From NCBI GenBank assembly GCA_011033025.1, contig WFMF01000005.1, positions 1,178,001-1,242,000 on the forward strand: 64,000 nucleotides of DNA. Reading direction: 5' to 3'. The stretch's first letter is position 1; each line of letters opens with the position of its first letter. This document shows positions 5,730-58,322 of this stretch, piece by piece. Origin of the DNA: Beroe forskalii (taxonomy: Eukaryota; Ctenophora; Nuda; Beroida; Beroidae). Under the pieces are notes generated by a model, which was not told where the DNA came from, ran no database searches, and saw only the letters and a list, made by a program, of their open reading frames with translations. Position numbers and translations under genes: made by a program.

Positions 5730-8700
5730 TCACAACTTGACGACCTTTCCTGGCTGTGTAGATTTGATGTGTTTTTGTTTATTACTCTCCTCTTTGAACA
5801 CCTCCTTGGTCGCTTTCTTGACCTGCCTTCTAAGTTTCTGACTTTCCTTGACTGCCTTCTTACGCTGCCGTTTCTCTTCGGCAGTTTCTGATTTAGTCCT
5901 ATAGTTGGATATGATAGCAGTACTCTCGTCCTCATTGTCCGATGACTCGACTCCCTCGTCATCTTCTTCTTTGATTGCATTGTTCTCTTCCACTACAATA
6001 CCCTTCTTATTCAACTTTATCTTCTTGGGAAGTTCAATGAGTTTGGGGTGGTTGTAGATGTTGGAGTATGTCGAAAGGATGGTCTCGCAGTCCCACGGGA
6101 TTCCGGCACTTTGGTCCATGTCTTGAAGCACAACTTCCTGTTTTTCTGGTCTGTCTGCTTGCTGTGAAGCTAGTTCTAGCGTACGACTCTTGTTGAAGGC
6201 TAAGCTTTCCTGAAGTGAGAATAATCCTCATTCATTCGAAGTGGTCATTTAAATTCCATTCGTTCAAAGTCATACGAGCAAATTCATTTATTCAAATTCA
6301 TTCATTCATCAGAGCCATCAGAATCATGATTACATGAAGGTCTCAAGATGGATAATAAGGAAATATTGAGGGTGAAATAAGTCAATAATGACACTACTTT
6401 GATGAGACCGACAGAGATTTGAATATAACTTGAATCAATATTCACAGAAAAATCGCTAGAATGACAATGTATACTTTGTGGCATGCATGTTAAGTTTAAT
6501 CAGCTCAACACAGTACAACACACGGTGAATTGCCACGTCCGCAAGGTATATCAGAATAATATGATGAACATTGGATGTTATATCATCATTGAATGTATTT
6601 CGACACATAGCAGGTCTAAAACATGTAGAGAGTATTGCGATCTAGTAGGTCTCGAACGAAGCTTTTATGACTACCTATTGTTAAGTTTATTGAAAATGCC
6701 TTAATTTTAGTAGCTAGTAAATTTTACACTTAGTCATTTCAATGAAATTTATAGTGCATCACTGTATCGATTTGATCAGCCTTTCGCTGCAGCAATTTGA
6801 TTGTCTTCATGCAGGATGCAGTTATTTATTTCAATTGCTGGTTTCATTTGCCTCCCACCACCTACACACGCAAGGATTCTCCACTACAACCCCACCAACT
6901 AACCACTTGAGGTTAGTTGGAAATCGTTCACACTCGCAGTTCATACTGCAAAACTTTTTGGGTATCGAGGAGACCTGACTTGGTTCGACATTGAGTGTGT
7001 CCCATAACCAAGGACATTTTCTAAACGTTCGGTAAAACTGGACCTATATGGCGAGTTCCTCGATATGCAAAAAAAAGGTCTCGAACCATCAATATTGGTA
7101 TCATAATGCGTATCATAAAGCAAAGAAGAATTGCTCATTTGACAGTCACATTTGAATGTTTGATCAACCAAGAAGCAGATAAGAAGTAGAAGAGAAGAAG
7201 ATAGAAGCAGATAAGAAACCTTAATCTTATTACGTCTAATAATATTGGATTGTCAATAACCAGTTTCGATTACACACTTGACACCACAGTAACTGTACAG
7301 ACTGTACATTGAATTATACATATACACTGTGAATATTGGAATGTACAACGAATGTACACAGATAATACATTGGACTGTTGAATGAGATATGAGTGTACAA
7401 TGTTCAAAGTACCTCATCATCGAGATTGTTCCTCTCGAACTCCTCACATAGCTGTTCCAGCACTAAAGTAGGTTCCTGTTCTCCTAACTCATCTACTGGA
7501 GGTAACTCATCCTCACCTGCTCCAAGGTGGTCGTATTCCTTGTACATCTGAGGAGATACCAGGTTACCAGGCGTTACCAGGAGTTACCAAGGTGGTCGTA
7601 TTCCTTGAACATCTGGGGAGATACCAGGTTACCAGGTTACCAGGGAGTTGCTGGGTTACCGAGGTGGTCGTATTCCTTGTACATCTGAGAAGATACCAGG
7701 TTACCAGGTTACCAGGAGTTACCAAGGTGGTCGTATTCCTTGTACATCTGAGGAGATACCAGGTTACCAGGGGTTACCAGGAGTTACCAAGCCCCAAGGT
7801 GGTCGTTTTCCTTGTACATCTGAGGAGATACCAGGTTACCAGGGGCTACCAGGAGTTACCAAGGTGGTCCTATTCCTTGTACATCTGAGGAGATACCAGG
7901 TTACCAGGGGTTACCAGGGGGTTGCTGGGTTACAAGGGGTTACCAAGAGTACCAAGGTGGTCGTATTCCTTGTACATCTGAGGAGATACCAGTTTACCAG
8001 GGGTTGCCAGGGGTTACCAAGGTGGTCGTATTCCTTGTAAATCTGAAGAGATACCAGGTTACCAGGTTACCAGGGGGTTGCTGGGTTACCAGGAGTAACC
8101 AAGGTGGTCGTATTCCTTGTACATCTGAGGAGATACCAGGTTACCAGGTTACCAGGAGTTACCAAGGTGGTCTTATTCCTTGTACATCTGAGGAGATACC
8201 AGGTTACCAGGGGCTACCAGGTTACCAGGGGGTTGCTGGGTTACCAAGGTGGTCGTATTCCTTGTACATCTGAGGAGGTACCAGGTTACCAGGGGGTTGC
8301 TGGGTTACTAAGGTGGTTGTATTCCTTGTACATCTGAGGAGATACCAAGTTACCAGGAGTTACCAGGTTACCAGGAGTTACCAAGGTGATCGTATTCCTT
8401 GTACATCTGAGGAGATACCAGGTTACCAGGGGTTACCAGGAGTTACCAAGGTGGTCGTATTCCTTGTACATCTGAGGAGATACCAGGTTACCACGGGTTA
8501 CCAGGAGTTACCAAGGTGGTCGTACTCCTTGTACATCTGAGGAGATACCAGGTTACCAGGTTACCAGGGGTTACCAAGATGGTCATAATCCTTGTACATC
8601 TGCAGATGTACAAGGATTATGACCATCAGATATCTGAGGGAGGTACCAGGTTACCGGGGGTTACTAGGATACCAGGGGGTTACTAGGTTACCAGGGGTTA

Positions 8701-11700
8701 CTAGGATACCAGGGGGTTACTAGGTTACCAGGGGGTTACTAGGTTACCAGGGGTTACTAGGTTACCAGGGGGTTACTAGATTACCAGGGGTTTGGTTACT
8801 AGCTTACCAGGGGTTACTAGGTTATTAGGAGTTACTGGGTTACCAGGAGCAATTTCAAGTGACCTGGAGATTATCCGATTATAAGAGTTACCACTGATAG
8901 GGATCGCATCTTGGGACAAACTCCAAAATAAGAGTTCTTATGATAGGCGCTGGAATCTATGCTAAATTTAAAATAGGTAGAATTTGAATCTGTGCCCTGG
9001 ATTTCTGGATGTTGGTACCAGGAGACCAAAGAAAAGGGCATCTGGCTTCTGTTTTTCTGAGAAAATACCAAAGAAAAATGACCTTTGTTTCATTCCTAAG
9101 TAAGAATAACACGAAAGACATAATGAGCTCAAATAACTGAAATATATGAAATTGCATTTCTAAGAAAAACGAATTCAATAAATTTTGATGGTAGCATAAT
9201 ACGTTGAACCTATGCGTTTCTAAGAAAATCAGGGCCCTTATCTATCCGAATTCAGATACCAATTTGAAGTTCAAAATCATTGTCACTTAAACTGTATTCA
9301 TGTTGCCAGTAAACGAAAGCAAAAGGTAAATTTGCGGCTACCAAGGAAGATTTGGATTTAATAAAGTTTACAGACGTCATTGAACCCAACTGCACTAAGA
9401 TTTCCAACTCCAATGAAGTTGGCCCGTAAGTTCTTGGGAGGCCGGGGGGACATTTCCCCCTCAGTTTTTTGGTAGATTGCCGGAGAGTGCACAAAATTAA
9501 ATGGAAAATCTAAATTTTTTAAAAATTTCGCCTGCGGCGGGCATGTCTGCCGCTTTATGGCTTTTCAAAATTTCCATGTCCCCACCAATTTTTCTTTTCG
9601 ACCAACGGCCCTGCTATGAAGTAAGATTAGCCCCGGTACATACCTCCTCAAACCTATCGTCAAGCAGGCTGAGTCCCTCGTTTCGAGGGAGGACGGACGA
9701 GGTGACCGAGTACTCGGTGAAGCGGCACATCTCACTGCCGCCTCCGAACTCGTCGTCAGAGGACCTCCTGCCTCGTCCCCCAGAGAACATGCTGTCCACA
9801 TCATCCTCCTCCTCACTGTCACCTTCCTCACTATCCTCACTGCTACTGGAACCGTCCTCCCTGCCGTACTCAGATAACACGGCCCCTTCCGCCTGGAATG
9901 GGGTTCTGGATATAGTGCTCAGACATTTATGTAATAATGCGCAGTGGAACTCGTGAGTCAGAAACATAGAATTGAGTTGATTTAGTCCATCTTGGTTCTA
10001 ATTGGATACCATGGTTTTTTCTTCCTAAGTTCAACTTTGATATCCATAAATCCCCTCTATAACGAATTGATATTTTCATATAACTCAGTCCAAAGAGCTA
10101 TGCATACTAATAACTTACATAGAGGACAGCTATGCAGTGGAAATCTACATTTAAATGAAATGTGACAATTGATGTGGAGTTGTTGGTGCATCGGCAGTTG
10201 GCGCATTGCCATGTTAACATGTTATCAGGAAACAAACTCGCTAGGTAGGATTGTCTGCTACTGCACTAATTAGTAATTAAAGTTCAGAGTGCATACTGTG
10301 AAATAAAGAAATAACATGTAATTTCCCAATCTTAATTTCTAAGAAATGGCGCAAAGTTAATTCATCAAATTCAGGTTTAAACAATGTCCTCAGACTACCA
10401 ACCAAATTATCAACGATGGAAATTGCATGAGAAAATATAGTTATCCGCAACACAGGGGTTTTGCTGAAATTTAACCGTACATAAGGCGCACTTCGAAAAT
10501 CAATGGCCGACTGACCAACAACCAACAGGCGTAACTATTGCTCAAAATGGGTACTAGGTTGTTCTGGTTCGAAATACCGCCGTAGCTTGTGGTGGAGTAT
10601 GCTTTATTCAAGTGTCTATTGTTATATTATCTGATTATCTGGGTTATCTAGCGCGTTACAACAGCACCGGTCTTGAAGCGCGTTGAAAGAGATGGTTTCA
10701 AAGCAAGTGGCCACATCTCTGAAGCCAGGATTTCTCCGAATCACGTGGTGGCATTGATAATAAGTAAACGCTACATTCCGAGGATTACAACTTCTCCGAA
10801 ATCCTGCACATTGCTATCTAAAAGTTTAGATTAATTAGATATTCCAGGGAACACAAACTGAGAAACTACTCACGAGTCCAATGAAATCATCCTCAAGTTC
10901 CAGTTCTGGATCCTCGAAGTCGAAATCATCGTCCAATGCTGCCATGATGTCCGGGTCGAGAGAGAGGTCCAGACCGCGAGGTGCAGCTAAGTTGAGCATT
11001 CCGATGGGCTCTTCAGTGGCAGATGGTAAAACGCATACAGGCAACTCGACCTTTCCTGCAATGAAAGGAATTTCAAAACACGGTGCAAAGTTTAGTTGAA
11101 TGGAAAATCCTGACTTCATATTGTAGTGGGAGTCTCGAGTGGGGTTGGCAGTCTGCCAAACTTCAGCCCCCTCGCTTCTCCGAACCTGCTCGATTGGGGT
11201 TGGCAGCCTCCCAAACTACAGCCCCCTCGCTACTCCTAACCTACTCGAGTGGGGTTGGCAGCCCCCCAAACTACATCCCCTTGCTAATCATAACATGCAC
11301 GAGTGGGGTTGGCAGCCTGCCAAATTACAGCCCCCTCCCTACTCCTAACCTGCACGAGTGGGGTTGGCACCCTCCCAAACTACAGCACCCCCGCTACTCC
11401 TAACCTGCTCGAGTGGGGTTGGCAGCCTCCCAAACTTCAGACCCCTCGCTACTCATAACCTGCTCGAGTGGGCTTGGCAGCCTGCCAAACTACAGCCCCC
11501 TCGCTACTCATAACCTGCACGAGTGGGGTTGACAGCCTCCCAAACTACAGCTCCCTCGCTACTCCTAACCTGCACGAGTGGGGTTGGCAGCCTCCCAAAC
11601 TACAGCACCCTCGCTACTCATAACCTGCACGAGTGGGGTTGGCAGCCTCCCAAACTACAGCCCCCTCGCTACTCATAACCTGCTCGAGTGGGCTTGGCAG

Positions 11701-14700
11701 CCTGCCAAACTACAGCCCCCCTCGCTACTCATAACCTGCACGAGTGGGGTTGGCAGCCTGCCAAACTACAGCCCCCTCGCTACTGCTAACCTGCTCGAGT
11801 GGGGTTGGCACCCTCCCAAACTACAGCCCCCTCGCTACTCCTAACCTGCACGAGTGGGGTTGGCAGCCTCCCAAACTACAGCCCCCTCCTCGCTCCTGTC
11901 TCTGACATGTTGCATGTAATCGTAATCATCCTCGTAGTAGATACCACATTGTTTCTGTTCCACAAGTCTGGCAGCATCATTTGCCTCTTCCTCTTCACCT
12001 ACTGTAAGAATTCGGATTAGATACAATTGTATATTATGTTCCGGACGGTCCTATATAGCGAACTTCTCGAAAATGAAATACATTATCGCTATTTAACGTT
12101 TTAATAAAAACGACAAACTTATTGTCCATATTGACATTTCCAGGGCTTAACTCTGGGCTGAAAAGAAGCATGAATAGGACGGCGCAACTCCATAGACTCA
12201 TATCGTCGACTGAGTGCAAAAAAAGCTGAGTGCAAAACAATCCTATCTCCAACTTTTGTCTACTGCCTCTCTGGAGGCCCCTCCACCCTTTGGAATCGAT
12301 TCCATACTCAAATATGTCATTTTAGGCCTAAAAATTGAAGTTAAAAAATATCATAAATCCATTGCCAAAATTTGGTGAGTGAAAGACAATCCTATGGTAC
12401 CTTAGGATCCCTGTCCACCATAATCTGCAAAAACAACTTAGTTTATACTGGAGTTAGGATACCAGAAATGATGAATAAGTATCCTATCTCCATTGACATG
12501 AATGAAATAATTGATAACGCTATTGTAATACAGTGTTACAAGTATCCTATCTCCGATAATTCTTTATATGAGTATATTGCTCTCTTGGTACGTATATACC
12601 TTTCTCTTTCAACGAGCTATATGTGCATGTAGTGTGTAACAACACTATTATCTACATGATACCTTGGCAAATTACATTCCAATGCTTGGTTTGTATTTGT
12701 AAATCACTTTGCCTGTAGTCACCCATACAAAGTCCGTGACCTAAAAAATGAATTAACTGATATATAATAGCGGTGCATTATGCATAGCTCTGTTAGCCAC
12801 ATATATAAGCGATCGAGATATGACTGAAAGTAGAGGGGAATTGCTCAATTGGCAGAGCACCTAACCGGCAATCAGGAGGTTGTGGGTTCAAGCCCCGCTC
12901 GCCTTGCACATTTTTCAGATCACCAAGTTTGTTTGTGTTACTATAGGCAGGATGAATTACAAATATCGTATCTCTGATACAGTAATACTTCAAGAGTTCA
13001 AGCTTTGGGTGGGTAAATCCTCACAAGACGGTCTGAAGCTCATCCTCATAAAGTTATAAACTCTCTTATCATATTCAAAACCATTTTCAAAGCATTAATA
13101 ACATCGGCGCATTATAGCAATCCACCATTTACGTCATATTTTAGTCTTTTGTAGTGTGTAGAAATGTTTGGTGATGTCACATGGCTGGCAGATTACACGC
13201 TGGTACAGTTATTTGATGTAAAATGTTCACTGTGGCACTGCATACACAATTGTTCTGTGCCACATGACCACTCGTTGATTGCTATGCAATGATAGGCTTT
13301 TACCACACAGCACAAATTCAAGCAGATACTCAGATATGTGATACAGAAAGGCACCAAAACATCATGAACAGGCTGAATGGAAAGTGAACCCATAGCACAG
13401 GGATCCTCCCCCTTGCTCAAATCCACCATGAACCGTATTTTTATAAAGACTGCCCTACTCTCAAAGAATGGGCTTCTCTTCGACAAGAGGATAGTCAAAG
13501 TGATCATTCTTGTCAGATGAGTCCTGAGTGAAATGCAACATTTAAAATGATTGCAGAAAGAAGAATTGGCTGATAACTTCAAGTGCCCCCCACACTTCAA
13601 TCAGATGATACTCATCCTTCATGCTCATCTCATAATATCTTTTTTAAATAAAGTTTAGTATGAATCTGATTCCTTGTAATGAGTGATTTCAAAACTATCT
13701 AAGTCAGAAGACAGATTCGATCTTGGTGCCTATGTACTCTGTACATCCTCCTCAACATAAGGATGCTGAACTTATCTTCACAGGAGCCTTCCATTCTCTC
13801 GACTTGAATCCCTTCTAAGGCTATAATGAAGTACTTGGAGAGGCCACTTAGATCAGTTTATCGGTTTTTGATTGTTGTCAATAGACCCACAGGAGAACGT
13901 GCTTCCCGTCACAAATCTGGAACTATATTGACAGATTAGACACAGGACTTAAAAGTGACCTGCACAACCATTGTATTGTATTGCATTGTATTGGTCCCTT
14001 TCCCGAGGAAGGGTTTCCTGATGGGAAAACGTTGACACAGGAGCCATTGGTCACCATTAAAGTATTAAAGGAACAAAAGCGAAGGCAAGGATGCCTCTAG
14101 TACCCTCTTGTGCCTGGAGCTTGATGAGAGCAGCATTGAAGTGCAATGAGTTGAGTCAACTACCAACTTCAATGTTGAAATTTTTGAAATTTTTTTAAAT
14201 GCCTTTGTCATTTACTGATTTTTTGGGCACTCAAACTTTGCAATCTATGCCTAACTTACTGTCAGCCGTGTATGTATGCAGTCATCCATGATCCACAGAA
14301 TTAACTGCTTTTAAGTATTTACCATCTTATTTTATTACATGTCACCTTGAAAAGTAATAAAGTGGCATCCTGTATTCATGTAGGGATTTGCTGACGTTGA
14401 CCAATATCAAACACCCACCATGATCAGTGCTATCAAATTACCAGTTGACCAAGGCCAGTTTTTGTAATTAGAGGTACCCACTGTCCAAAGAAAGGGTTAT
14501 AAGAAAAGGGTGGTATTGGTGATGAAAATTCGTCTGAAGTGTAGGAAACGTTTTAACAGATAGAGGGACATAGAGAAAGATTTAAAAAATTAATAAGGGC
14601 CAAGGTAAGAGAATTAGAATTGGAAAAATAAAGGATATAAGCCTAGTGCCTACCTAGACCTTTCAATATTTCGCCTTAAATTTAAAAAGAAATGAATTAA

Positions 14701-18491: not shown

Positions 18492-18499
18492 GATTTGTG

Positions 18500-21468: not shown

Positions 21469-24207
21469 TTATTCGTCCTCGTGACACTTGCAGGACAGCA
21501 GCGACGGAGAGGAGGGCACTGGACGGTCTAACGCGCTCAGACAGTCTGGTCCGTGGAATATTAACCCGTAGCTTCCTGAAACACAATTGTTTTTCAAACA
21601 ACTATTATAATTAAACCCAATGGGGGAATTATATTATTCAAAGATTATAGTGACATAGTGTGAGCCATGGGTAGTAGAGTAGTAGGTATTCATTCAGTAG
21701 GGGGTTGTACTCAAAATTTCATGGCGTGCCAGGGGGTGGATTAATCTCTAGCTAAAATATTGGTATTATTTGTACGTATTTTAAATCAACATAATGTCTC
21801 AATAGTCAATTGTCCATGACATTTAGATACATCTGAAAATGTCTGAACTAAGAACTTGGAATTATGATGTTAGGGAACGAATGCTATGTCTAAATACTGT
21901 TTGCAAAAATATGCGGTTTACCGTCATCAACTCACAACACTGTGCTATGATTATGGCATGCTATATTGACCGCCTATTCGCACTGCGTGCACATGATGTA
22001 TTGAGTCTCTATTGAGACGATGAAGAACAACACTGTTACATGTCAGTAGTTGAGCTGTGGTCCACGCTGAAGTCTAAAAGCAATCTCATAGAAGCTGCAA
22101 ACCTCATATATTGTCACGTCCACTTGGTGTAAGTAAGAACACCGTGTATATATCACAAGTAGCTGGTACATAACATTCGTTGTACGATGAACACATAATG
22201 TATCTGAATACGTATGACGCATGCATTATGTCAGAGAGCAAGGTGTTTAGTGACAACTGACAAAACTACAAGGTTTGTTCTGTAATTATTTCAGAACAGT
22301 GAGAGATATTTCATGTTTTAAAGCTATACATCTTGAAAACGAGTAGAGGCAGTTTCTCCGAAATAGTTGACATTTATGAGAAATAAAACAACATATTTTA
22401 TATTCTTCAGAACGCTCCCATATCCGAGACATCACCTGCTCTTCCTGCAAACATCTTACAAAGCTTATTACACCCGTGTAGCGGAGTGCTCTCCATAGCA
22501 AGAAAATAAGAAAAGCTAATATTCTAATACTCATATTGATTATCATATTAGCATATTATTCTACCATGAAAAATCAAAAACGTAGAACTATAGAACAGCG
22601 CTGATATCATATCGTGATAGAATATTAGTGAATACTGGGCGAGGAGCAGCAGAGTCTAAAATATGCACTAATAATCATCAATTAATGTAACATATAAATA
22701 GAGAACACACCGTTCTGCACTGCTGTCCTGACGTTGTCGCCCTGGTCGTCCACGAGGAGTATCTGATCGGGTCTGTACCGCTCCCCGCACTCCTCGTGCA
22801 CCTCGTCCAGCACCGAGTGCAGGTGCGTCTGCTTCCCCTCGTTTATTATAGCTGCGAGGGGAGTGGTAAGTTAGAGTGCAGGTGCGTCTGCTTCCCCTCG
22901 TTTATTATAGCTGCGAGAGGAGTGGTAAGTTAGAGTGCAAGTGTGTCTGCTTCCCCTCGTTTATTATAGCTGCGAGGGGAGTGGTAAGTTAGAGTGCAAG
23001 TGTGTCTGCTTCCCCTCGTTTATTATAGCTGCGAGGGGAGTGGTAAGTTAGAATGCAATCACAGGAGGAAAAATCAAAATTTCATTATTGATGATAAACA
23101 GCAAAAATGTAAGATGATAAATTCAACTTACAGGTTTACAGTATTTGATAATCTGCAAGTTCATCATAATAATTTTACACCCGTTATAAATCAAGAAATT
23201 CGTTACCCTTATTGGCTGTTTCACAACTGAAGTCGCCCCTGACGATGATTTTATCCTTTGGTGCAATTCGTTTCATTAGGTTACTGATAAGTTGGGTTTG
23301 CCGAGAGAAGGTGGTCACGGCGACCTGGAGTCTCGGGGATGCTGCCTGGATAAGCTGTACCATGTCTTGGTGGAGTAAACTGAAATTAAAAGCTTATCAG
23401 GTAATCTTGTGTTGGGTATATTAATTTTATACACTTTTCATTTGGTTGTGCGTCTCTTATCTTAGTAATTATCTGATAGCATCGCAACAGTGCTTTTACT
23501 CTGTGTGTACTGAGCAATACAAGGAATGACGGCGTTGGCCGAGAAGTACAAATTTTCGCATATGAACTCACATGGAATGAGCTTCATGCTTGAGATGATA
23601 AAGGTGTGCGGGACTTAAAGCGTGGAATCAATAAAGTTTGACACTATTATGCGAGCTGGAAATAAGGATGTGATCGCCAAATATCTTGTTCGTGCCCTTG
23701 TGTTAATCGAGAGACAGCACATGTTGATCACCAGTCAGCGTGCAGATACGGCTACGGACAGAGCAGCGATTATCAAGCTCCAGAAGGATCTGATTACTGC
23801 GCAGAAAACTCAGATTGAAGCGATCAGGAGAGGAATCTGTGAGGAAGTCTCGGAAGTTGTGGAGGGTATTGTGAAAGAGAACGTCAAAGAGGGTGTGACG
23901 GAAGGTGTGAAGTCGAGTGATCTTCACACATATATATGCTTAAGATGTTGTTATCCGCTATTCAAATGATAGAAAGATTTCAAATGTCATAAAATCCTTT
24001 AACTGTCATAAATAATTAATGCATCTTACAACCCAGTGCCCATGAGACTTTTACCATGTTTCAGTACCTGTTGAGGTCTTCTTCTGTACCCATATAGACG
24101 CCCCTGGTATGTATTGAACATATCGTGAGATCGAAGTCAAGCGCTAAGAGCTTCAATCCTCCGTCTAGCAAACATTGCACTCGTTTCTGGACAAGGCTCT
24201 GGACCAT
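21469..24207 (-). CDS. HAD-superfamily phosphatase-like protein, complete, four exons, 186 aa
   Basis: Exons in transcript order: 24068-24207 (start), 23207-23379, 22711-22851, 21469-21575 (stop at 21469-21471). All phases agree. Exon 1 encodes LLALDFDLT with the nucleophile pair D24/D26 (HAD motif I). Exon 2 has a VAVTTFS motif (motif II, T about residue 69), then IIVRGD. Exon 3 has a motif III lysine (K111 in NEGKQTH) and ILLVDDQGDNVRTAVQNG (motif IV, D139/D140). HAD enzymes use the first Asp to form a phospho-aspartate and usually hydrolyse phosphate esters; this small family lacks a large cap. The substrate is unknown. An in-frame stop lies just upstream of the chosen ATG. The exon 3 acceptor sits in a four-copy tandem repeat. 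Intron 1 holds an opposite-strand ORF. Fold assignment is confident; the exact biochemical role is not. Confidence 0.87.
22815..23050 (-). repeat. 59-bp tandem repeat (x4) spanning the HAD exon 3 acceptor
   Basis: Four units of 59 bp, nearly identical, begin at about 22815, 22874, 22933 and 22992. On the minus strand each holds TAACTTACCACTCCCCTCGC AG followed by CTATAATAAACGAGGGGAAG, the exon 3 acceptor and first codons. Only the last unit in transcript order (acceptor at 22852-22853) continues into exon 3. The high identity of the copies indicates recent expansion. Confidence 0.93.
23622..23969 (+). pseudogene. 115-codon ORF, possible retroelement ORF1 fragment
   Basis: An open frame on the strand opposite to the HAD-like gene, inside its intron 1. 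The middle (DRAAIIKLQKDLITAQKTQI and on) is strongly helical and heptad-like, then comes a run of regularly spaced Val/Glu repeats. This resembles the N-terminal coiled region of ORF1-type proteins of animal retroelements, by general recollection only. There is no zinc knuckle or RNA-binding domain downstream, and frames close after 23969. It may be a fragment or a chance ORF. Confidence 0.35.
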
Positions 24208-25855: not shown

Positions 25856-25907
25856 TTTATTAAGACTGTACGTGGGTCTATTGAAATTCAAAGCTACGTT
25901 TGACCTC

Positions 25908-26036
25908 CACCCATAGCTCAAATGTCAACTGTCTGACATCCACCCATAACTCAGATGTCGATTGTTTGACTTCCTTCCCATAACTCAGATGTCAACTGTT
26001 TGACCTCCATGGCTCCATCCCTCAGATGTCAACTGT
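25908..26036 (-). repeat. 36-bp tandem repeat spanning the TM2-RING stop codon
   Basis: Four units carry CAGTTGACATCTGAG or close variants on the minus strand. The first one is the end of the coding sequence (Thr-Val-Asp-Ile-stop); the other three follow in the 3' UTR, separated by GGTCAAACAGTTGACATC-like text. The unit thus copies the final codons and the stop codon. Confidence 0.8.
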
Positions 26037-29000: not shown

Positions 29001-32000
29001 AGAACTTAAGAAATATATCTCGTGCGTCCTCGACAGTAACAACCCAACCAGTGTGGAGCAATAAGGTCATCATTGAGGGCATCTGGAGTCCTGGAGCTGT
29101 ACCACTAGGATGATATATAGTATTATGCAATAGATATAACGCAGAAACTGGATTATGATTGTGCATTGTAGTCGTTCAATCATCAAGTTACGTTTTACCA
29201 ACCATGTGGAGCAAGATACGTGTTCATTTTGAAAAAGGGGACGGTTAAAATTATTTATAAAATCGTATACGAATCAAAATTTATTCTACTCCTAGCGATT
29301 AAATATTCATGCCAGGTATAATTAATTCTCTTACCATGACCCCAACCAATGTGGAGCTGTGCAGTTCGAAATATAGGGACGGGAAGTAGGAAGTACAATT
29401 AGTGTGTTTTAATTAAGTTTCACTACAATTATAACACGTTGTACAGGACAGCAACTTTACATGTCACGTTTAGTTTTGTTTGCTCCTTTTGAGTCGTTAC
29501 TTCAGATATGTTTAAACCGTGCCAGATAATTATATTCTTATATTAATAAAGTATATAATATTTGAATTCTTTAGAGTTATAAATTTATAGTTCGATTGAC
29601 TTAAATCACCGTTAATTTGTCCCTTAGTTAGGTAAATGTCAGAAAATGAAACAAAGTTTACCTGTACGAATCCTGGTTGGATCAAATTAACTCAAAACTG
29701 GCTCCACATGGTTGGTCTATCAATTACCTACACAGAGAGTACAAATTAAACATATTTTTCAATACAAGAATATGCAAAATTACTTATTTAATGGTGACAT
29801 ACTTTTGAGTAAAACTTACTTTTAGATTTATTAATATTTGCGTCCTTTTGGAGGTCAGCTCCACACTGGTTGGAGCTCCTTTGGTGTTGAATGTTGCTCC
29901 AAGACGATGCCTATTCATGGGCCCAAATCATAATAGTCTTATATAAATATTGGATAGCAATCCAACCGTAGTGGAGCAGTTTTTCTGATTCAAACAGGTC
30001 TTGCTCCACGTGGTTGGATCAAGTTAACTCGAAACTGGCTCCACATGGTTGGCCTATAAATTAACTATACAGAAAGTATAAAATTAACATAATTTTCAAT
30101 ACAAGAATGTGCAAATTACTTATTTAATGGTGACATACTATTGAGTAAAACTTACTTTTAGATTTACTAATATTTGCATCATTTTGGAGGTCAGCTCCAC
30201 ACTGGTTGGAGCTCTTTTGGTGTTGAATCTTGCTCCAAGAGGATGTTTATTCATGTATCCATATTATTAGAGTCTCATATGGATCCGAGACATCAATCCA
30301 ACCGTAGTGGAGCAGTCTTTCCGATTCAAACAGGCCTTGCTCCACATGGTTGGATTAGTTAGAGATTTAAATTACTCCACATGGTTGGCCTAGGAATACG
30401 TTACTTGAATAGATAACTTGGGGCAAATTTTAATGTTCCTGTGACTTTTACAGCCACTTTTTTTGCACCATATCTGAAAACCACAAAAGTCTAAAATTAT
30501 GGATTTTTGACATGACTTTTTGAAATGCCTGCTCCACAGTGGTTGGTAGGAATTAATAAACGAATATGATTGATTTAAATTGACAAGAGAATGAATTTTG
30601 CTGTGATGAAAACCATTTGTTTCTATCTCAACTCCACACCCTGGTTGGATAGATATATGTCTCAAAATTCCAGTTATTGCCTATTACTCCACATTGGTTG
30701 GATGGTTTTGAATCGTTTTTTCATCGCATCTGAAGGGCATAATGATGCTGTACCAAGTTCACTCAAAAAATAATTTCAAAACCTCACACAAGCTTTGAAA
30801 TATGCCCGCTCCACACAAAAATGCTCCACAATAGAAAACCTTGCATAACTTCTGCTCCACAAACACTATTGAAATGGTTTTTCAACCATCTTACAGCCAA
30901 AACATTTGAGCATAAGGCAATAATCTTCACCAAGTGGCTCGGGAATATGGATTCGATTGACAGCCATTTTCCTAAACCATGGTTTTTGTCAAATCATACT
31001 TTCAGTTGACCCTATCAAACATGATATGAAAGTAAAAATTCTCGAAATACAACTGCAGGGTGACCCCAGTGAATGGCAAAACAGAACCTGGAACACCCTG
31101 CAATATTCTCGGTACTAGAAAAGGAAAAATTCAAAAATATTGGTAGACCAAAAAAGTGCCACACGAGTATAATAATATTATAATATAATACTAACTGCAG
31201 TAGTTACACTCAATGATATTTCCCATAATACAAAAAAATAGTCAATTGAATCCACCCTCTTGTTACATTAAGAGAATTAGTTTTCAGGATATTTTGACAC
31301 TTCTGAAGCATAGATTTACATTATGATGATTAAATAAAGATAATAAAATAAAATATTAATATATCCTCAGATTGAACAGACGTCTTGGTATAGACTTAGT
31401 ATGTTGAAAGAGTTTGAAACTCCATTTTAAGAAAATTGATTTAGCTTACACTATATGAACACAATAAAATATTCTTAAAATAAAGTATACTAGAAATAAA
31501 GACTATCCTAGCTTCAAGTGCTGGTACACTCAAAGGAAGCAATAAGCCTCCAGCCCTGCGACCCCCAGTGGTAAAGTTGCTTGGATGGTTGCCAATCCTG
31601 GTTTTGGGCAAAAAACTTGGTTGCATGGCTGTGATGGGCGAATGAGCCTATATGAATTAATTTAATGCTGCTACAACACACCATATTATGGGCTATGACA
31701 CTTCAGTGTGTGGACTTGTGGATGGCAATTAAATTTTGCGTGGTTCTAACTTTTTGCCAAATAATTATTTAACAAATAATCACGGGACACTGGACAGTGG
31801 TTAAACATTATCACGTCATGATTAAAAGTTTACGTCTGCCCGCCTCTATGTTTTGTAAATGCTTTCCATCCAGTAATCCGCACATTAATTCGATTTTCAT
31901 AATGCCTCTCTCCTCACTTTGAAACACGTATCATGGGTAATGCGTGATCTAGCTTTCATTTTCTTTGATGTTGTACGAGGTGGTTGCCAATAACTCAATT

Positions 32001-36702: not shown

Positions 36703-39700
36703 CTAATATTGCTCTAGGAAGTCTAACTTTAGTCCGCTGGGTATACTTATCATGGAAAAGTCCACATCTTTGGACTCGAAGGGGAATGTCAGAGGTTTGA
36801 TCTTGTTGGGATCCATCATTAGTTTCACTCCTGGTTCGATTGGACGCTGGTCTAGGATATACCTGGAGAGGATAGAATTGATAAGGTCACCGGAATCAGT
36901 GTATCGAATTCTGAGGTATCAGGAACAATGAACACTCTTGTATTGATTGATTGCACTCGCAATATGGGATCGTTCACATATTACGTAATCAATTTTTGGC
37001 CGATTTCAACCCCCCTCCCCCTCGTAATCAAGTTTACAGTAGTTTTATTTGTTACAATAACATGTAACGTAATCATTTGGAAATCCCCCTCCCCCTTTGG
37101 TGATTACGTAATATGTGACCGATCCCTATTTACAATATCTCACTCCAAACAACTAACAATTGTCCCTCGATAACTCACTTGATAACTGTCTGAGAGACCC
37201 TCTCTTCATACTCCGACGCAGGGGAGTAGAGAATCAGGAGTTTCTGGAGTTGCAGAGAGTTGAGGGAGTGGCACGTCTCGCAGATCACAGCGGCGTGATC
37301 CAGACTGGACTTGTTCATCTGGAGGAGTTGGGAGGCTTGCCGGATCTCAGCCAGGTTGGAGAGGATTCCACTCTCGTCCAGATCCAGCCCTCGCTCCCTC
37401 ACCCACTGCTCCAACTGGGACAGGTTGTACCTGGACAGAGAGAGTGAGAGGTTACAGTTTTGTTATGTACAAGAAGGTGTACCTGGACAGAGAGAGAGGT
37501 TATGTACAAGAAGGTGTACCTTGACAGAGATATGTTACAGTTTTGTTATGTTCGAGAAGAATTTAGAAAAAACAGCCAACAATTCATTGATCAACTGAAA
37601 CAACTTGTCGGCTGTCCAATGCCCATGATCAATCTCATACCACTAGGAAATACTAGAGATAACATGACTGGTACTATGCTATGTGCCATGATATATCCTA
37701 CCTAATCTGTATTCCCTTGCTCCAGTGACAAAGGTCCCGTCTCAGTATGAGGTTGTTCATGAGGGAGGCGTTGATGAAGTAGAGGACCTGTCCTACAAAC
37801 TGTCTGATCACGTGACTGCTGACACTCACTGACGTCATTAGCTGCAGGTAGAACTGTAACTTGGACACGATGGCAGCTGTGTCGTAGCCTTGGTGGTCCT
37901 GCCGTCGAACTGAAACAAAGGCATCTAGACACACGTTAATAACACGTAAAACATAGAGCAGCGCTTCAAGGATTGTACGCAATCAATATGGCAACATTAA
38001 ATATTGATTGCAAAAACTCGAAATTCCGACCCTTCTTACCTCCAGCGAAGCTGGTGTTCATGCCAGGAATGGAGTCTCTTTCCAGCATGCCCGGAATCAG
38101 CATGGGCTGGATATTTTCCTGAGCTAACTTGACTATGGTATGGAACACGTTGATACATTGGTCAGATACCAGGTTCCTGTAGTCTGACAGGTCGTAATTC
38201 TTCAGCGAGAATTCCTTCATTCCGGGCGTCAAACGGCTGTTGTAGAGCTGAGATTGAGTTGAAGTGTTAAGTAAGAGTAGGGAGTAGAGTGGGGCGAGTA
38301 GAGTGAGGGGATTAAGGTGAAGACTGAAGAGAAAATTGTAGAGCAGCTGTGAAAAATTGAGTGATGGGAATAAAAGGGCCCAAGTGGGGCGGTGTAAAAT
38401 CACAAAAAATAAAACCCACCTCTTCGCCTGAAAACTGAGTGAGATTCTGTAGTAAGGTAAGACAGTTGGCAAGCCAGAATACGGAGATAACAGCATCTTT
38501 ACTCTGCTTCCGAGTCACAGCGGTTATGCCTGTTTAGTGGAGATTTAACCCATTTAGTTGAAGCTCAAACCCTATTTCAAGCATTAATCGTTCATCTCAA
38601 TTTTCGAACACAGGACTCAGAAATTACACAATCAAATATATAAATCTCAAGCCAAATAATTAATCAATATCTGGCAAAATCCCTGGAATTCAGAAACATG
38701 CTCTGGTACCTCTGATAATGATATTATCAATACGGTACCTGTAATGAGCGCAGTGAGAAGTTCCTGTATCCTTCCCTCGTCGTTGCAATGGTCGGCGTAC
38801 CGCACACACATGAACATAACGTGAGCCACCAGACCCGGCTTACACCCCGGACCTGAAGTTGGAGTGCTGCAGTGCAGTCATTGATTGATCGTAGGTTGAT
38901 CGCAGTGATCAACTTACAAGAGTTCAAGTTCAATCAACGGTATGATTGGATTCCAAAATATAAATGAAAAGATTGACTTCCAGGTAAGATAAAAGTAGCG
39001 TTATCGCCCTGTACCGGTAACGAGTTCAGTCCTGAGTTGGGTTATCAGCTTCTTGACGAGTCTAGAGTCGTCCTCCCGTTTACAGGCGAACATGCCCCGG
39101 AACTCCTGCTTTCTCTGCTTCACTCCGGAGCTCTGTCTGATGAGCTTCTTCTCGGGGTGCTTGGGGGTGCCTGAACAGTCAAAAGTGAGGAAATCAGGGC
39201 GAGTTGAGTAGAAGAGTAAAATTTAATGAACTGTAGCATTTGGTAAAAATTTTACAGGTTCGTAGTAGCTAGAGTCAGAAGCAATTTACACACAATGACA
39301 ATGTACTCCTGTACTGAGTACTACTTTAGCTGTACAATTTAATAATGTACAATGCACATGTTCTGCCACCCACCTGCATCCCGTGGAGGCATGGCATTGT
39401 GGAGCTTGGTGATGTCAGCCAGCAGTTTGATGTTCTCCTCAACCTTAGACTCCACCTTGTTCTGCAGGTCAACGTCTTCCTTAGACCGGATGTTGTGCTA
39501 AGGAGAAACACGGTTTGAGGAGACATGGAGGAGTAATGGTAATGTTCTATCTCACCATACCCCACGGTCTGGTAATCGGCACCACGTCACCAGGCACCTT
39601 CACCCATGGCAACACAGCATTGACTCTGATCTTGCAATAAAAAGTATGATTTTGAGATATGACCCTGTCCCCTATAATAGTCTTAGATCTGGAATTGTAC

Positions 39701-42700
39701 GGACCTTGTTGTTAAGTTTGGAAGCATCACTAAACAGGGAAACTCTCAGCTGATCAAGATGCGACTTAATTTTGTCTTGGGCTTGCTGTGGAGGGACAGG
39801 AAGTTAGAAGATTGATTTTAATCACTTATTCAGCAAATTCAATTGAACAATTCAACATTATAGGGATAATACTACAGAAACATCATATTCTGTCACCCAT
39901 CGTCACCTATTTGACACCCAGTGTCAGCCATCTGACACCCAGTGTCACCCATCTGACACCCAGTGTCACCTATATATGACACTGCACCCGGTGTCACCTA
40001 TCTGACATCTGGTCTCACCTTTCTGACACCCAGTGTCACCTATAACTGTCACCCATCCGACACCTACTGTCACCTATCTGACACCCAGTGTCACCTATAT
40101 CTTAACCCATTTTCACCCATCTGACACCCAGTGTCACCTATCTGACACCCGGTGTCACCTACCCGAGGGTTGCGGGTGTTGGCTATTTCCTTCAGCAGGA
40201 TATCCCTCACTGTCGCCAGTCTGAGTTCCATCTGCTCGTACTTCTTCCGCACCTCCGCCTGCTCGTCCACCGCCTCCATCAGCTCGTCCGTCATCCGGTC
40301 CAAGTCCTCTTTCAGCTGCACGTTCTCTACGATAATCTCCTCCAGACGACGCCTCTCGTTGTCCTGGTAACACACGAGGGTTGTAACACGAGGGGATTGG
40401 ACCGAGGGAGGGTAGGAAGAGCAGGAGTTATATGAATAGAAGGAAGAATGGCGTTCATTCCAATACTCACATCAACAGGGTAGATCTTATCTCCTCCGTT
40501 CACAACGATGGCGTTCTGGTTTTGAGCAGACTCCTTTAATTCCGCTATTGTCTGATGAGAGATAAAAGAGGTGTTTTCAGTAGGGGATGCAAATTAAAGC
40601 CAGTTATAGAAAGTGCATGATTCTCAAGAAAATAAGCGGATCGACTAACATGCTCCTTGGATAGAATATCAATAGCATCATGATAGAACTACAATTGCTA
40701 TTGAGAACAAGACGAGGAGCTACACTTAGAGTATAATAAGGAAAGGCATAGCTGAAGAAAGTAAAACGTAGCATTTCTTCTAATTCTAATCATGATTCAA
40801 GAACATAGTTTTATGGAACACCATGCAATCATATGAGTAACTCACACACAAACACACAGTAGTATAATATTTTGTTCTAGGTAAGTAGGTAGATGCTGGC
40901 TGTTCGCGTCCCCCGTTACCTTGTACGCCAGATCGAGTTTCAGCCTCAAGTCCTCACTAATCTCCTCAGTACTGATCAGCATGTCACTGTCGAAGCTGGA
41001 AAACCTCTCTGATTCGCTGTGATCCCTCCCCTGTGAGAAGGTGGAGTCCCTATAGCAACTGTAGCCTCCAGTAGCGTCACTCTGTCTGACTACAGACGCA
41101 GGACTGTTGTTTGCTGCCGTCAGGTAGCTGCCTTGCTCCGGCCCCCGCTCGTCTCCCGGATACAAGGCTACGCGGCTCTGCTCACCACATTCTGGAGATG
41201 GGGATGTGATCTCGGAGGAGGATGTTACCAAGTTCAGGAAGTCTCTGAGTTGGTCCACTTCCGGAACAAGACCCGAGCAGTGAGCTGGGATGTAGAAACT
41301 GGAGAGCAGTTTGGTGGTTTCCGATTGTTGTCGCACTAGTTCCGTGATTTGTTCCTGGTGTTCCTCTACTTCGAGATCTGACAAATCAACTTGAATTCCT
41401 GAGTCTCTGTTTGTAATCTCCAGTTGTGAAGCGGTGGATATCGTTTCCACATTACACTGCACAGCCATATCAGTCACATGACAGTCATCTGATTCCATCC
41501 CGATGGCACTGTCATTGCTACAGCTCTCCAACTCGTTGTCATGGTGACTGAAGGTTTCGATGTGTGGTAACGCGTTGTGCTGCGTAGCAACGTGATGTCT
41601 CACGCGTGAGGCTTGCGTGGCGCTGCTCACAAGTGTTGGTCTGCTATATTGCGTGATGTTATGACGTGTTTCGGGTCCATAACTCTGAGTTGATGAGTCC
41701 TTTGAAGTTGGGCTGATCACCTGAGTGCTCTGGTCTCTGTAGGTTCTCTTAGTATCCTGAAAAAATGGGACTGCACTGGTCCGAGAATTCCATCAATATC
41801 CCACGATCCGGCGACAATCTCCCTCAGTTGCCAACCGGCACTTTTCCAAAGAGTGCGTTTAATAATCAATCATGAACACGCAGTACGAACTACGATTGAA
41901 CGATTATTCAAAAGTCGGAACGAATACAGCAAGGATGAAGATGAGATTCATGAAGACGGCAAAAAGGTGAGATAACAAAGAGCAAAAAATGCAAGAAAGA
42001 ACGCGAGTATGCATGATTGCATGGGCGATTAGACATAGAAGCTTTCCATATCTATAGATTACTAGATTACCAGATTAATATCAAAAACGATGCGATGGAT
42101 CTCTGTGGCGGATTATCCAAGGATTATTAATGTTTAATCGAAGAATAATTAAATATTACTTATTTCCCAGCAAGGCAACAAACAGCAACCACAGCAATTG
42201 ATTTTTTAAAGCTTTGAACTTTCTAACTTAACAAAACACCAAAATAATCAGTATTGCTAAATGATAAACACTTTTTATCTGGGTGTTGGATTGCTGGGTG
42301 AAATTGCCAGTTTTTAATTTTATATTTCAAATCGTTAGAATAAAGCTAACAAGTTTGACAAGTAGAGCCTTAATCCACCACAGATGCAGATGGTGGACCA
42401 CCCTGTTCAAAACTAAAACTAAACAGAACTTTACTCAGCATGTTAAGCAACTCAGCGAACACAGAATGAGAAAATAACGCCACAGAAATCACTGAAACAA
42501 ATAGCACGTGACACGTAGCGCGTTACATGTAACACACTCAGCAGAACACGTGACAGGTATCGCAGGCACCGCGTGATACACCTCACTACCTTGTTAGCTC
42601 CCTCCAGATCCGCTGTCAGTTGGTCTCTGAGCTGCTCCAGGTCTGTGATCTTACTCCGGAGATCACAGGCTGCAGTAGTTGCTGGTGGAGGTTGTAGGAG

Positions 42701-51700: not shown

Positions 51701-54700
51701 TCATGAGGCTTGTTTAGGAATACCATATGAAATATCTGGAACTCTTGAGATAAACACATGGTACTGTCAGCCACAGAGACCGGAGAGTATTTTGTTTGAC
51801 AACATTCATCACATACTATTCTTACTTTCTAAACAATCCCTACTCGAGCCACACCCCTATGAACTGATGACTTAATGACCTCAAAATAAATGTAAAAAGA
51901 CAAAAGCACTCACATCAACCGAGCAACTATCGTTCCTCTCCTCAGTAAACTTGATATTCCCCATGTGCAGTATGGCTGCCAGGACACTGTACAGGAAGGC
52001 CTGTTGGGACTCGGAGATGCCCAAGTTGGTCATAGCCACGCCCATGTCAAGGAACATGGTCCGGTCATCAACGTTATCAATAACAGGAGCTCGTCCCAAC
52101 CGGGTGTACTTGAATTCGTCAGGGTGTTCTGCGGAAAATTGTAGTTGGGGAATGATGGGGTCGCTAACACCTTGAAATTCTTCCTTTTATATTTTACTAG
52201 GCTCCTATAATAGTATAATAGCTTCAGTGCGTCTACTCTTCTAGATTGGATACGCAATATAAGTTTAGGTAATGTGAATTGTACATCTTTAGACTTTACA
52301 CTTTTACACTTTTATGCTTTTATAGTTTTAATAGTAGTATCACTTCTGTCAGCTAAGGTAAGACAACCACAGATAAACACAAAAGGGCCGGAATTAGGTC
52401 ACCAATTAAGCAATGGACTCTACATGGCTCCAATAGGTTTATGCAGTGCACCATCTTATTCTCTTATTGTATAGCTAACAAGAGGTCAATTGAGCAATAA
52501 TTGGTGTACATTGTATAACTAAATAGAGAAATGGGAGGGGATGGGTTGGTTGTAATGAAGCAATGGGTATTTTAGTATTCTGGACAGTTAAATTATGAAT
52601 ACACACGAGAACATAAATACCCAATTTGATGCACCCAAACGGGGAGTAGGAACCTAATTGGGTTATTAGCCCAATTAAGTAAGCACCGTATGGCAATGTA
52701 CACGGTGGGAGGGACTTTGAATAATGCCTACAGTCAATGAGGTACACAATAAGGTACACAAGCGTATTGTAGGTCTAACATTGTAGTTAGGTACATTTGC
52801 CCTGTAGTTGCTCTTAACAATAACACCAGATTAAACAGCTAAATGTAGCCTGTAGGTATTATATTCAACCTCAAAAAACAAGAGTTAGCCCCGTATTCCT
52901 GTGTAACTTCACTTAATTTTCTACAGTGTGTATATGTACCATGTGTACTCATTATTATGTGTAACGTGTATCCTGAGAGAAATGTAGAGAAATGAAGGGA
53001 ACACACATTGTATCCTTAGTATACTACAAGAGGAGGGAAGTTAACACATTGAATCTTACAATCTAACATCTTAGGACTTTACTACGTCACTACTACACTA
53101 GTAGCAAGAATTAGGAAGTTAGAAAATAACATAACATGGTTTCACTGTAGGCTTTCTCCAAGTCTCAAGTTTAGACTCGTTTCTACTTTTTGCAGACTAC
53201 ACACGTCAATCTTTCTGACGCCGTGTTTCACTTTGAATCATCAGCTACTCACACACCTTATTAAAACCAGAATATGATCTGTCACTGAGTCTAAGTATAG
53301 ACTCGTTTTTGCCTTTTTACAGACTACACGTCATGGTCAATTGTCATCCTGTCATCAATCCTTCTGACCTTATGTTTCCCAAATCAAACATATTCTGCTC
53401 TAACAGCTTAATAAACCATTTAACTAGCTTAATAAACTAATAGGCAAGTAGTAACTACTCACTGAGGTGGAGGTGCTTCATGTGAGGCAGGTCTCTGACG
53501 GCACACATCTGGTAGAAAATGTGGTAGTTCCGCTCGTTCTTAGCCTGGGGAAGTGACGGGATAATGAATAAGTTTCTAAAGTTCTAAGTTTAGTTCTTAG
53601 CCTGGGGAAGTTACGGGATCATTACGTTTCTGCGTTTAGTTCTTAGCCTGGGGAAGGGATCAAGTGACGGGATCATGAGATGAGCTTTCAGTCTGGGAAT
53701 ATGGCGTGATCATAGTTTTTACTTTTTTAGCCTGGAAAGTAGTAATAAAGTGACGAATTGAGTACTGAAGTACTGAGTAGTTTGTGAGTTTGTGGAAATG
53801 TGGCATCATTTCCATTTTGCATGAGTACTCTACAGCTTAATCGTATCGATTTGGTAGACGAAATTATGTATATAGAGTAGTGAGCTTCAGTACCTGCCTA
53901 CATTCTGTATAAATTGATGAATTGACATCACCAATGGAAATGTTGGGGTTGAAATGCAGAAGCCAGAAGTAACTTCTGCCGCTCCAAGTGAAGAGCACAA
54001 TGCATTTATTATTACATTCTTTATATGGTCACAGAATGGCAGTTGGTACAGTAAATCTCGGCTTCGTCATTTCATCATCACAACAATTATTACAAAAGAA
54101 TGGTATAATTTAGTATCTTAGTGTGTTGGAACTTATATTTCCATAGAAGCATAGAGCCCGCGAGAGTCCCAGATGCAAAGGCCAATCAATATTATAATCA
54201 TGCCTTAATTTAATTATATAGGATCTGTTAATCAATACCAAATCTCTCCCGTAACACTATAAGTATTTACATATTTCGTTAGTTCATTATGCCCGTACCG
54301 TACAGCAAACAGACACATAACCATGTAAATACATGAATTATAATCTCACTGATAATCATACACAAAGAGAGAGGTAAATTGAGGCATATAATTGAGACTT
54401 TCCTTGTTACTTGCTGCTGATTCCTTGTACATACACACACAGCCGCGCTGACACAATGGTAGCACACTCCTAGTGGCTAACAGTGGCTGACAAAGTTCAC
54501 AGTAAAAGAACATGATAGTGTTAACTATAATATCATCGTTATCTGAGTCCTAATATTTACATGTACCTACCGGATCACACTGACTAGAGGGCCTAGGAAG
54601 CTACAAAGCTACGTGTATGTGATGGGATATCAGCTGTATTATTTACACAGGAGCAACTCTTTGTTTACTGCTAACCCGGCTAGTCGGCTACTCAGCTACA

Positions 54701-57700: not shown

Positions 57701-58247
57701 CATGTTCTGTTTAGTGGGGGAAAGTAGCCGGAAATTGTCATTATAACTGTTTCAAACATGTTCCAGAAACTTAGGCAATCGGCTTTTTTCAAGGTTTTTT
57801 TTTCTTTTTTCTTAATTTTTTTAATTTTATTTTGGTGAAGGAAAAGCAAAATATTTCAAATAAGTTTGACATTTTTAGTCAACGAATTTTCACCTTCCCT
57901 TCTTTACTTATAGAGTAATAGAAATAGTATAAGGAATAGAATCGTTGTACTAGTTTCTGATACTCAGACAATGCCCATCAAGTGAAGTGGAATACGAAAT
58001 ACCAGTAGATACAGAAATAGAGAAATGATATTATTATGGATAGGAACAAGTGGTGGCAATAGGAAAAGCGCATGGTTGTGGTTCAAAGTTTCCTCTACTC
58101 ACGTCTTCATCTCACTGTAAGCATCCTCACTGATGGCGTAGATGTGAGGATCCAACTGCCCAATCTGCTGCCCTTTGTACGCCCATATCATCTCATTGCC
58201 GTACAGCGGCACGTCGCAATAGGGATTGATAGCAACCAGCACGATAC
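36703..58247 (-). CDS. MYO5: Unconventional myosin V heavy chain, 5' end missing
   Basis: A processive actin motor that carries vesicles and organelles. The 31 visible exons, 5' to 3': 58103-58247, 55418-55574, 55109-55252, 53463-53544, 51914-52128, 50984-51064, 50657-50844, 50253-50475, 49953-50037, 49617-49738, 48714-48952, 47882-48482, 47612-47728, 44275-44381, 43946-44060, 43649-43742, 43301-43416, 42590-42820, 40920-41756, 40471-40551, 40163-40363, 39705-39785, 39556-39630, 39374-39497, 39015-39170, 38739-38852, 38420-38529, 38040-38247, 37702-37909, 37179-37430, 36703-36862. Every junction has an AG acceptor and GT donor in matching phase, and the sum is an exact 1,889 codons including the stop. 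Visible parts are the motor from just before the P-loop, six IQ motifs, interrupted coiled coil and the globular DIL tail. The first ~100 residues (SH3-like N-terminus) must lie beyond 64 kb or were missed. The total would be about 1,990 aa, longer than the ~1,850 of vertebrate MYO5A, mainly because of a 279-codon exon. Confidence 0.97.
36966..37126. mobile_element. 161-bp MITE, TA-flanked
   Basis: The ends are inverted repeats GGGATCGTTCACATATTACG (36966 on) and CGTAATATGTGACCGATCCC (to 37126), with a C-rich run on each side inside. A TA dinucleotide flanks each side (37127-37128 and 36963-36964, the latter with one extra T). The TA target and end sequence fit the Tc1/mariner-type group. It lies in the last intron of myosin V and has no coding capacity. 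Confidence 0.85.
37421..37535 (-). repeat. Repeat spanning a myosin V exon acceptor (37430)
   Basis: GTACCTGGACAGAGAG, which covers the acceptor CTCTCTGTCCAG|GTAC of exon 37179-37430 on the minus strand, recurs at about 37479 and 37516. TTATGTACAAGAAGGTGTAC and GGTTACAGTTTTGTTATG are repeated between them. Three copies with a period of 37-53 bp lie directly upstream of the exon in transcript order. Confidence 0.8.
39374..44381 (-). other. MYO5: Myosin V medial tail: coiled coil and disordered 279-codon exon
   Basis: Exons 44275-44381 to 43301-43416 are Glu/Lys/Leu-rich heptads that dimerise the heavy chain. Exon 42590-42820 starts with an acidic Ser-rich and Pro-rich part and returns to coiled coil ([16 protein letters not shown]). 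Exon 40920-41756 is 279 codons of mainly Ser/Thr/Asp/Glu/Gln sequence without predicted fold, with several Gln-centred motifs that resemble LC8 dynein light-chain sites. Coiled coil resumes at 40163-40363. Six consecutive exons from 42590-42820 to 39556-39630 are all phase 0 at both ends. Confidence 0.85.
39886..40162 (-). repeat. 21-bp minisatellite starting at a myosin V exon donor
   Basis: About a dozen units of TGACACCCAGTGTCACCTAT fill the intron next to exon 40163-40363. On the minus strand the donor region GTAGGTGACACCGGGTGTCAG is itself the first unit, so the array starts exactly at the exon end. Each unit is nearly palindromic (TGACACCCAGTGTCA). Confidence 0.9.
46086..46147. repeat. 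(CG)n tract inside an inverted repeat
   Basis: A run of 18 alternating C and G bases (about 46106-46123) is flanked by GAGGTTATCGAAGGC and its imperfect complement GGCCTTCTTAACCTC. This forms a cruciform with a Z-DNA-prone stem top in a myosin V intron. Confidence 0.8.
46235..47300 (+). repeat. ~347-bp satellite, about three units, in a myosin V intron
   Basis: Landmarks TCCAGGTTTTTGAGATGTCG, AGCCTCAAGACAGCAACAAA, AAGATGAAGCTGAAACTGTCT and CAACGCAAGGTCAAAAACTCC recur with a period of about 345-350 bp. Units have diverged by perhaps 10-20 percent by eye. No coding capacity. It lies in the 3.2-kb intron between exons 47612-47728 and 44275-44381. Confidence 0.85.
47612..48196 (-). other. MYO5: Myosin V lever arm, six IQ motifs
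   Basis: Exon 47882-48482 (second half) and exon 47612-47728 encode six light-chain-binding repeats, recognisable as [51 protein letters not shown] and [14 protein letters not shown]. Six IQ motifs is the class V number and gives a ~36-nm step. Calmodulin or essential light chains are the expected partners. Confidence 0.93.
48197..58247 (-). other. MYO5: Myosin V motor domain segment
   Basis: P-loop GESGAGKT is at 55520-55543, switch [10 protein letters not shown] at 55199-55225, and switch II DIYGFE spans the exon junction 50657/50475. The surface loop 2 (exon 48714-48952) is Lys/Arg-rich, followed by [14 protein letters not shown]. The converter ends with [20 protein letters not shown]. 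The TEDS-rule position, 16 residues before the DALAK-like EAFVK, is Glu, which fits a motor that needs no head phosphorylation, as in other class V myosins. All nucleotide-binding residues I can check are intact. Confidence 0.94.
53536..53690 (-). repeat. Repeat spanning a myosin V exon acceptor (53544)
   Basis: GTTCTTAGCCTGGGGAAGTG covers the acceptor CCCCAG|GCTAAGAAC of exon 53463-53544. It recurs at about 53593 and 53639, each followed by ACGGGATCAT-like text, with two more degenerate copies to about 53745. The unit copies the acceptor and the first nine exon bases. Confidence 0.82.
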
Positions 58248-58322
58248 CTGATTGGTGGAAAGTTAACAGAACCTGATTGGTGGAAAGTTAGCAGAGCGAA
58301 ACCTTGGTGGAAAGTTAACAGT
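58244..58322 (-). repeat. Repeat at the acceptor of the first visible myosin V exon
   Basis: ACCTGATTGGTGGAAAGTTA follows the exon, and the text recurs at about 58270 and, more degenerate, at 58300, each with TAACAG or TAGCAG between. On the minus strand each full unit carries CCAATCAGGT, the acceptor of exon 58103-58247. Confidence 0.75.

Follow-up and report, generated by a model that had tools for sequence, protein, structure and literature searches.

Minisatellites seated on exon–intron junctions have a name in amphioxus, where they are called 'mirages' and where the reference for them is said to be the Adh paper of Canestro et al. from 2002. Amphioxus genes that carry them are Adh3, the globins BflGb6 and BflGb9, TnC and PGBD5, and reverse-transcription PCR and Adh3 data suggested that splicing is undisturbed (PMC3087553, PMC3902484). 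In human segmental duplications, internal tandem repeats with an average unit of 30 base pairs (bp) are found at exon–intron boundaries (PMC2812944), and introns have been gained where a junction or AGGT segment was duplicated in tandem, creating new splice sites (PMC4974935). Here, we describe comparable arrays in the ctenophore Beroe forskalii, both in a 64,000-nucleotide stretch (GCA_011033025.1, contig WFMF01000005.1, positions 1,178,001 to 1,242,000; hereafter the window) that includes genes for myosin V and LTV1, and in dynein heavy-chain genes outside it. These comb-jelly arrays share the structure of mirages, with minisatellite-size units that straddle the junction and contain exon bases and the splice signal; what is new is the ctenophore host and the involvement of 12 of the 32 aligned introns of a single gene, DNAH1.

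The likeness to amphioxus extends to the presence of arrays at 5' and 3' boundaries and decoy AG/GT sites, and perhaps to variable copy number. The evidence for undisturbed splicing comes from amphioxus. The human repeats are alike in being boundary minisatellites that vary between near-identical gene copies; in contrast, half of them lie within coding exons, whereas no array called by Tandem Repeats Finder (TRF) lies mostly inside any of the 205 exons (43.8 kb) considered here. The intron-gain system shares the duplication of junction or AGGT segments, new intron positions being described for that system. Among the papers listed on ctenophore minisatellites, or on ctenophore tandem repeats and introns, none dealt with junction arrays, judging by title and opening of the abstract. 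Junction minisatellites as such have already been published, under the name of mirages.

Exon edges were placed by spliced protein-to-genome alignment, that is by homology rather than RNA, in a genome assembly of 216 Mb and 1,134 contigs. The myosin V exons, roughly concatenated, are 64% identical to Mnemiopsis leidyi and 63% to Bolinopsis microptera (about 2,100 bits), and among the best 120 matches the next animal after these two ctenophores scores 1,142 bits, which marks the genome as a ctenophore's and, at these identities, as that of a species other than these two. Alignment to ctenophore myosin V (P0001, P0002) places acceptors at 58247, 53544 and 37430 and a donor at 40163, and alignment to an environmental LTV1 homologue (P0121) places a donor at 11846 and an acceptor at 7547. 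The arrays at these edges and at two further sites, with the evidence for each in brackets, are as follows.

11136..11888, minus strand: 55-bp array, 13.7 copies, across LTV1 donor 11846; unit of 43 exon and 12 intron bases (TRF, spliced alignment, printed copies).
11846..12001, minus strand: LTV1 exon; its final 43 bases recur within the intron (spliced alignment, with identity to P0121 at 24 of 50 residues).
7522..8602, minus strand: array of a unit of about 65 bp (higher-order 137/145) across LTV1 acceptor 7547; 26 exon and about 39 intron bases (TRF, alignment, sequence).
7413..7547, minus strand: LTV1 exon bounded by the preceding array (21 of 41 residues identical to P0121).
8578..8627, no strand: inverted repeat at the far end of the same array, built from the start of the exon; 26 bases at 8578 have their exact reverse complement at 8602 (sequence).
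22815..23058, minus strand: 59-bp array, 4.1 copies; 22 intron and 37 exon-like bases, putative acceptor 22851 (TRF, sequence).
25898..26036, minus strand: 33-bp array, 4.1 copies, starting within the end of a RING-type reading frame (TRF, sequence).
37423..37550, minus strand: about three irregular copies of myosin V acceptor 37430, with about 5 exon bases (sequence, alignment).
39886..40161, minus strand: array of a unit of about 21/42 bp from the myosin V donor (exon low edge 40163), repeating AGGTGACA (TRF, alignment, printed copies).
53536..53740, minus strand: irregular copies of myosin V acceptor 53544, with about 9 exon bases (sequence, alignment).
58246..58321, minus strand: 25-bp array, 3 copies, across myosin V acceptor 58247, with 2 exon bases (TRF, sequence, alignment).

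Alignment thus bears out the four myosin V and two LTV1 edges at which arrays had been reported, and the exon part of the LTV1 donor unit is itself homologous to P0121 (EGAVVWEAANPTRA vs EGVVWEALEPSKP). At the seventh edge, checks of the putative gene at 22815-23058 found no HAD match, so that its earlier naming as HAD is unconfirmed and the acceptor at about 22851 is our own reading. Judged by eye, the repeated unit takes in 43 exon bases at the LTV1 donor, 26 at the LTV1 acceptor, 37 at about 22851, and about 9, about 5 and 2 at myosin V edges 53544, 37430 and 58247, so the statement that six of the seven arrays include exon bases was correct, as was the observation that the array at 40163 (0 exon bases) begins exactly at the donor. 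The irregular copies at 53544 and 37430 are missed by TRF at score 50 and are plain in the sequence itself. An eighth array had been said to copy a stop codon, and it does: 25898-26036 repeats stop codon 26024-26022 of the RING-type frame (RING match at E 3.8e-5, below the Pfam cut-off), where there is no splice site. A long-unit TRF array (345 bp, 2.7 copies) also lies within the aligned myosin V gene at 46254-47201.

Junction arrays recur outside the window. Dynein heavy-chain genes were located by family and domain, hence as a non-random sample (about 198 kb), and aligned to dynein proteins, DNAH1 on C790 being 87% identical to Bolinopsis across 3,540 residues. With the window and shorter dynein loci they give 167 homology-supported introns from few genes overall: 126 kept from 135 older introns, nine of which failed a stricter filter, and 41 new ones, failing pairs at new loci being uncounted. 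These introns hold 72 TRF arrays (periods below 10 left out), with at least one array in 52 introns. A junction is straddled by 21 of the 72, 14 at donors (one with 0 exon bases) and 7 at acceptors; straddling arrays with exon bases and the splice signal were thus seen at both 5' and 3' boundaries, and 24 junction contacts were printed. The introns concerned number 19, of which 12 are in DNAH1, the gene that also has 10 of the 14 donor-straddling arrays. In one example, ...GACTTCATG/GTACGTTGC..., the exon end (CTTCATG) and the donor are repeated about six times. Two donor arrays stay outside the count, a 49-bp array at C580a whose exon was wrongly split by the aligner and DNAH1 34277-34635, of which less than half is within the intron; with them donors would number 16, the expectations below remaining those for 14. 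The sample includes near-copies of other loci (C790_inv, C580a_2, xC712b), and several arrays share one intron. Arrays make up 14.8% of 262 kb, window included, similar to the tandem-repeat share of 13% reported in the ctenophore Hormiphora (PMC8527503).

Unit number varies among similar gene copies; these may be either paralogues or haplotypes. At the DNAH1 donor C790:19118 and its inverted counterpart at 8733, GTAGGTTATC units differ in number and arrangement while the remainder of the intron is, by eye, nearly alike; a C580a acceptor array has two units in one gene copy and three in the other, in introns that differ elsewhere too. The arrays also create decoy splice sites, as the initial annotation had proposed: 12 of the 14 donor-straddling arrays contain a further GT site that scores no more than 1 bit below the real donor. 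Most of these would shift the frame, and by homology it is the outer copy of the repeated exon end that continues the protein. The 49-bp C580a array shows ACAG/GTGAGA at nearly every unit border, and we read its unit as 47 exon bases plus GT. Dynein genes occur in similar copies, direct or inverted, on C790, C580:340-410k and C712, through either recent duplication or unmerged haplotypes. Two dynein heavy-chain matches, on C534 and C1024, have open frames of 3,010 and 3,715 amino acids and are either contaminant contigs or retrocopies.

These arrays are probably ordinary minisatellites that arose by local tandem duplication, with little or modest positional bias, and were purged from coding sequence. 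Local duplication would occur at almost any position, with a preference for DNA rich in G+C (guanine plus cytosine), and duplications that lengthen coding sequence would be removed by selection. A junction-straddling duplication would be tolerated because it leaves one intact exon end at the outer boundary and adds its further copies to the intron; splicing would use the outermost donor, or the final acceptor, and the array would afterwards grow or shrink like any minisatellite. Array-free introns are short (median 200 bp) relative to array units of 11-133 bp, and therefore many duplications would straddle or abut junctions, while purging from coding sequence would leave the surviving arrays abutting exons.

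The junction frequency is near that expected under such a process. Within the window, alignment gives 35 exons, and 4 of the 26 merged TRF arrays reach an exon edge. Free placement predicts 4.3, a null that we rejected since it ignores the absence of arrays from exons and the length of units relative to introns; with exon overlap limited to 45, 25 or 0 bases, the expectation is 1.2 (P 0.03), 0.8 (P 0.005) or 0.1 (P <0.001). For the 167 introns, the same units were tandemly duplicated at uniform intron-touching positions, implanted in array-free introns and re-called with the same TRF settings; a second null was weighted by the measured G+C preference of intron-internal arrays (46.6% G+C vs 37.4% in random intron segments). 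Arrays straddling either edge number 21 vs 14.6 under the uniform null (P 0.026), and vs 18.8 (P 0.30) or 18.4 (P 0.26) with G+C weighting; without near-copies the expectations are 12.9 (P 0.0045) and, with G+C, 16.2 (P 0.08). Acceptor-straddling arrays show no excess in these introns (7 vs 7.5 uniform, P 0.65; 10.0 with G+C). Comparison of array ends with randomised positions thus yields an edge enrichment of 1.4- to 2-fold over the uniform null and of 1.1- to 1.8-fold over the G+C-weighted one (P from 0.30 to 0.008, according to the definition and the subset chosen). Random duplication where introns are short would account for 60 to 90% of the junction arrays, leaving an excess of 1.2- to 2-fold that is most marked at donors and in DNAH1 and whose size depends on the null. 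The initial claim that arrays lie at exon edges far more often than chance would give was therefore too strong, although a near-edge excess over the matched null does exist.

That excess is the material for a different explanation, in which exon edges, 5' splice sites above all, favour duplication, for example through replication–transcription conflict or R-loops at intron starts or through slippage in the polypyrimidine tract before acceptors. We regard it as rather unlikely, and several counts weigh in its favour and against unbiased duplication. Donor-straddling arrays number 14 vs 7.1 under the uniform null (P 0.0075) and vs 6.3 without near-copies (P 0.002); with G+C weighting the expectations are 8.8 (P 0.047) and 7.6 (P 0.011), the excess is stable over five TRF settings (P 0.005 to 0.04), and leaving out the window gives 13 vs 6.5 under the uniform null. 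In DNAH1 the donor count is 10 vs 4.8 with G+C (P 0.011). Over the whole sample, nine arrays vs 3.2 start between 1 intronic and 12 exonic bases from the edge (P 0.004). Seven arrays vs 1.8 stop 2-8 bases before an acceptor (P 0.002), three of them in near-copies, without which the count is 4 vs 1.4; the two that were printed are C+T-rich. Within 8 bases of either edge, a limit picked after the bins were seen, lie 30 arrays vs 18.8 (P 0.001), or vs 22.8 with G+C (P 0.027), and the excess persists outside DNAH1 (16 vs 10.9, P 0.039; without near-copies 13 vs 7.5, P 0.008). However, donor-straddling arrays outside DNAH1 number 4 vs 4.0 with G+C (2.8 without near-copies), and 3 vs 2.1 under the uniform null when the window is left out as well. 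The junction-amplifying process suggested earlier thus retains the modest edge excess, but acceptor-straddling arrays are at the null and donor-straddling ones come mostly from one gene. It is doubtful, to a slightly greater degree, that ctenophore exon edges, mainly 5' splice sites, are hotspots of repeat birth at which intron starts and 0-12 exon bases seed arrays at about twice the background or more; if true, this would link transcription or splicing to local duplication.

If junction seeding were general, intron-internal arrays should carry old splice sites or pieces of exon, and they do not. For donor sites in sense, the 47 internal arrays (0.32) do not exceed their reversed sequence (0.74), and the antisense score is higher than either (3.06); the 25 junction arrays necessarily have the higher score in sense. 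Likeness to their own exons reaches the top 5% in 1 of 47 internal arrays for the upstream exon and in 3 of 47 for the downstream one, an exception being C790:9610-10084, which resembles its downstream exon. The idea that internal arrays are old junction arrays is unsupported by these two tests. The absence of TRF arrays lying mostly within exons, internal arrays lacking junction traces and the stop-codon array, which abuts coding sequence where there is no splice site, together suggest that selection on coding sequence is what stops arrays at exon edges; the latter two also speak against a junction-amplifying process. A genome-wide scan for two donor consensus motifs spaced 17-47 bp gave 698 matches vs 103 for the reversed pattern, a signal that we rejected as genome-wide support since a scrambled motif yields 407 and the matches are dominated by a few giant arrays. 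In C1-C196, the eye separates at least 12 arrays for the donor and at least 10 for the scrambled motif, against 4,109 and 5,947 single motifs, among the matches listed (donor to C77 for all gaps and to C196 for gaps 12-26 only; scrambled to C196); the resulting per-motif ratio of 1.7 is an informal comparison.

Some arrays might instead be left over from intron gain under the Rogers model, in which an exonic AG/GT segment is tandemly duplicated and the array is the intron. The splice-site motif at the unit borders of the 49-bp C580a array would suit this, as would the LTV1 donor array, which covers 710 of 790 intron bases; in both cases, however, other intron sequence separates the array from the second splice site, and we consider this origin very unlikely. 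That the arrays are assembly artefacts is more improbable still: long arrays are hard to assemble and the dynein duplicates on C790, C712 and C580 could be unmerged haplotypes, but sequence differences separate the duplicates, and junctions at many loci carry arrays with differing units.

Mirages therefore extend from lancelets to a ctenophore, in which they can touch a third of one gene's introns. Junction arrays of this kind offer material from which decoy splice sites and new introns can form, they can mislead gene annotation, and ctenophores may serve for testing the mirage route to intron gain. Claims of junction-specific origin need a suitable null, since with short introns random duplications often straddle junctions.

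Among dynein introns, the one at C580:396920-397240 has a 15-base direct repeat (ATGYTACATCACCCT) at both ends, in one copy, much as a past gain or shift of the intron might leave behind. Arrays of about 1 to 8 kb rich in the full donor consensus CAGGTRAGT lie at C77:417-420k, C77:453-455k, C110:242-244k, C165:360-361k and C562:106-114k. In the window, TRF also calls a long-unit array at 29674-30392 (336 bp, 2.1 copies) and two nearby arrays, one polypyrimidine and one polypurine, at 2745-3492 (748 bp) and 4208-4320 (113 bp). On the minus strand at 60848-62356 are reading frames whose translations resemble reverse transcriptase and RNase H of an element of the long interspersed nuclear element (LINE) type.

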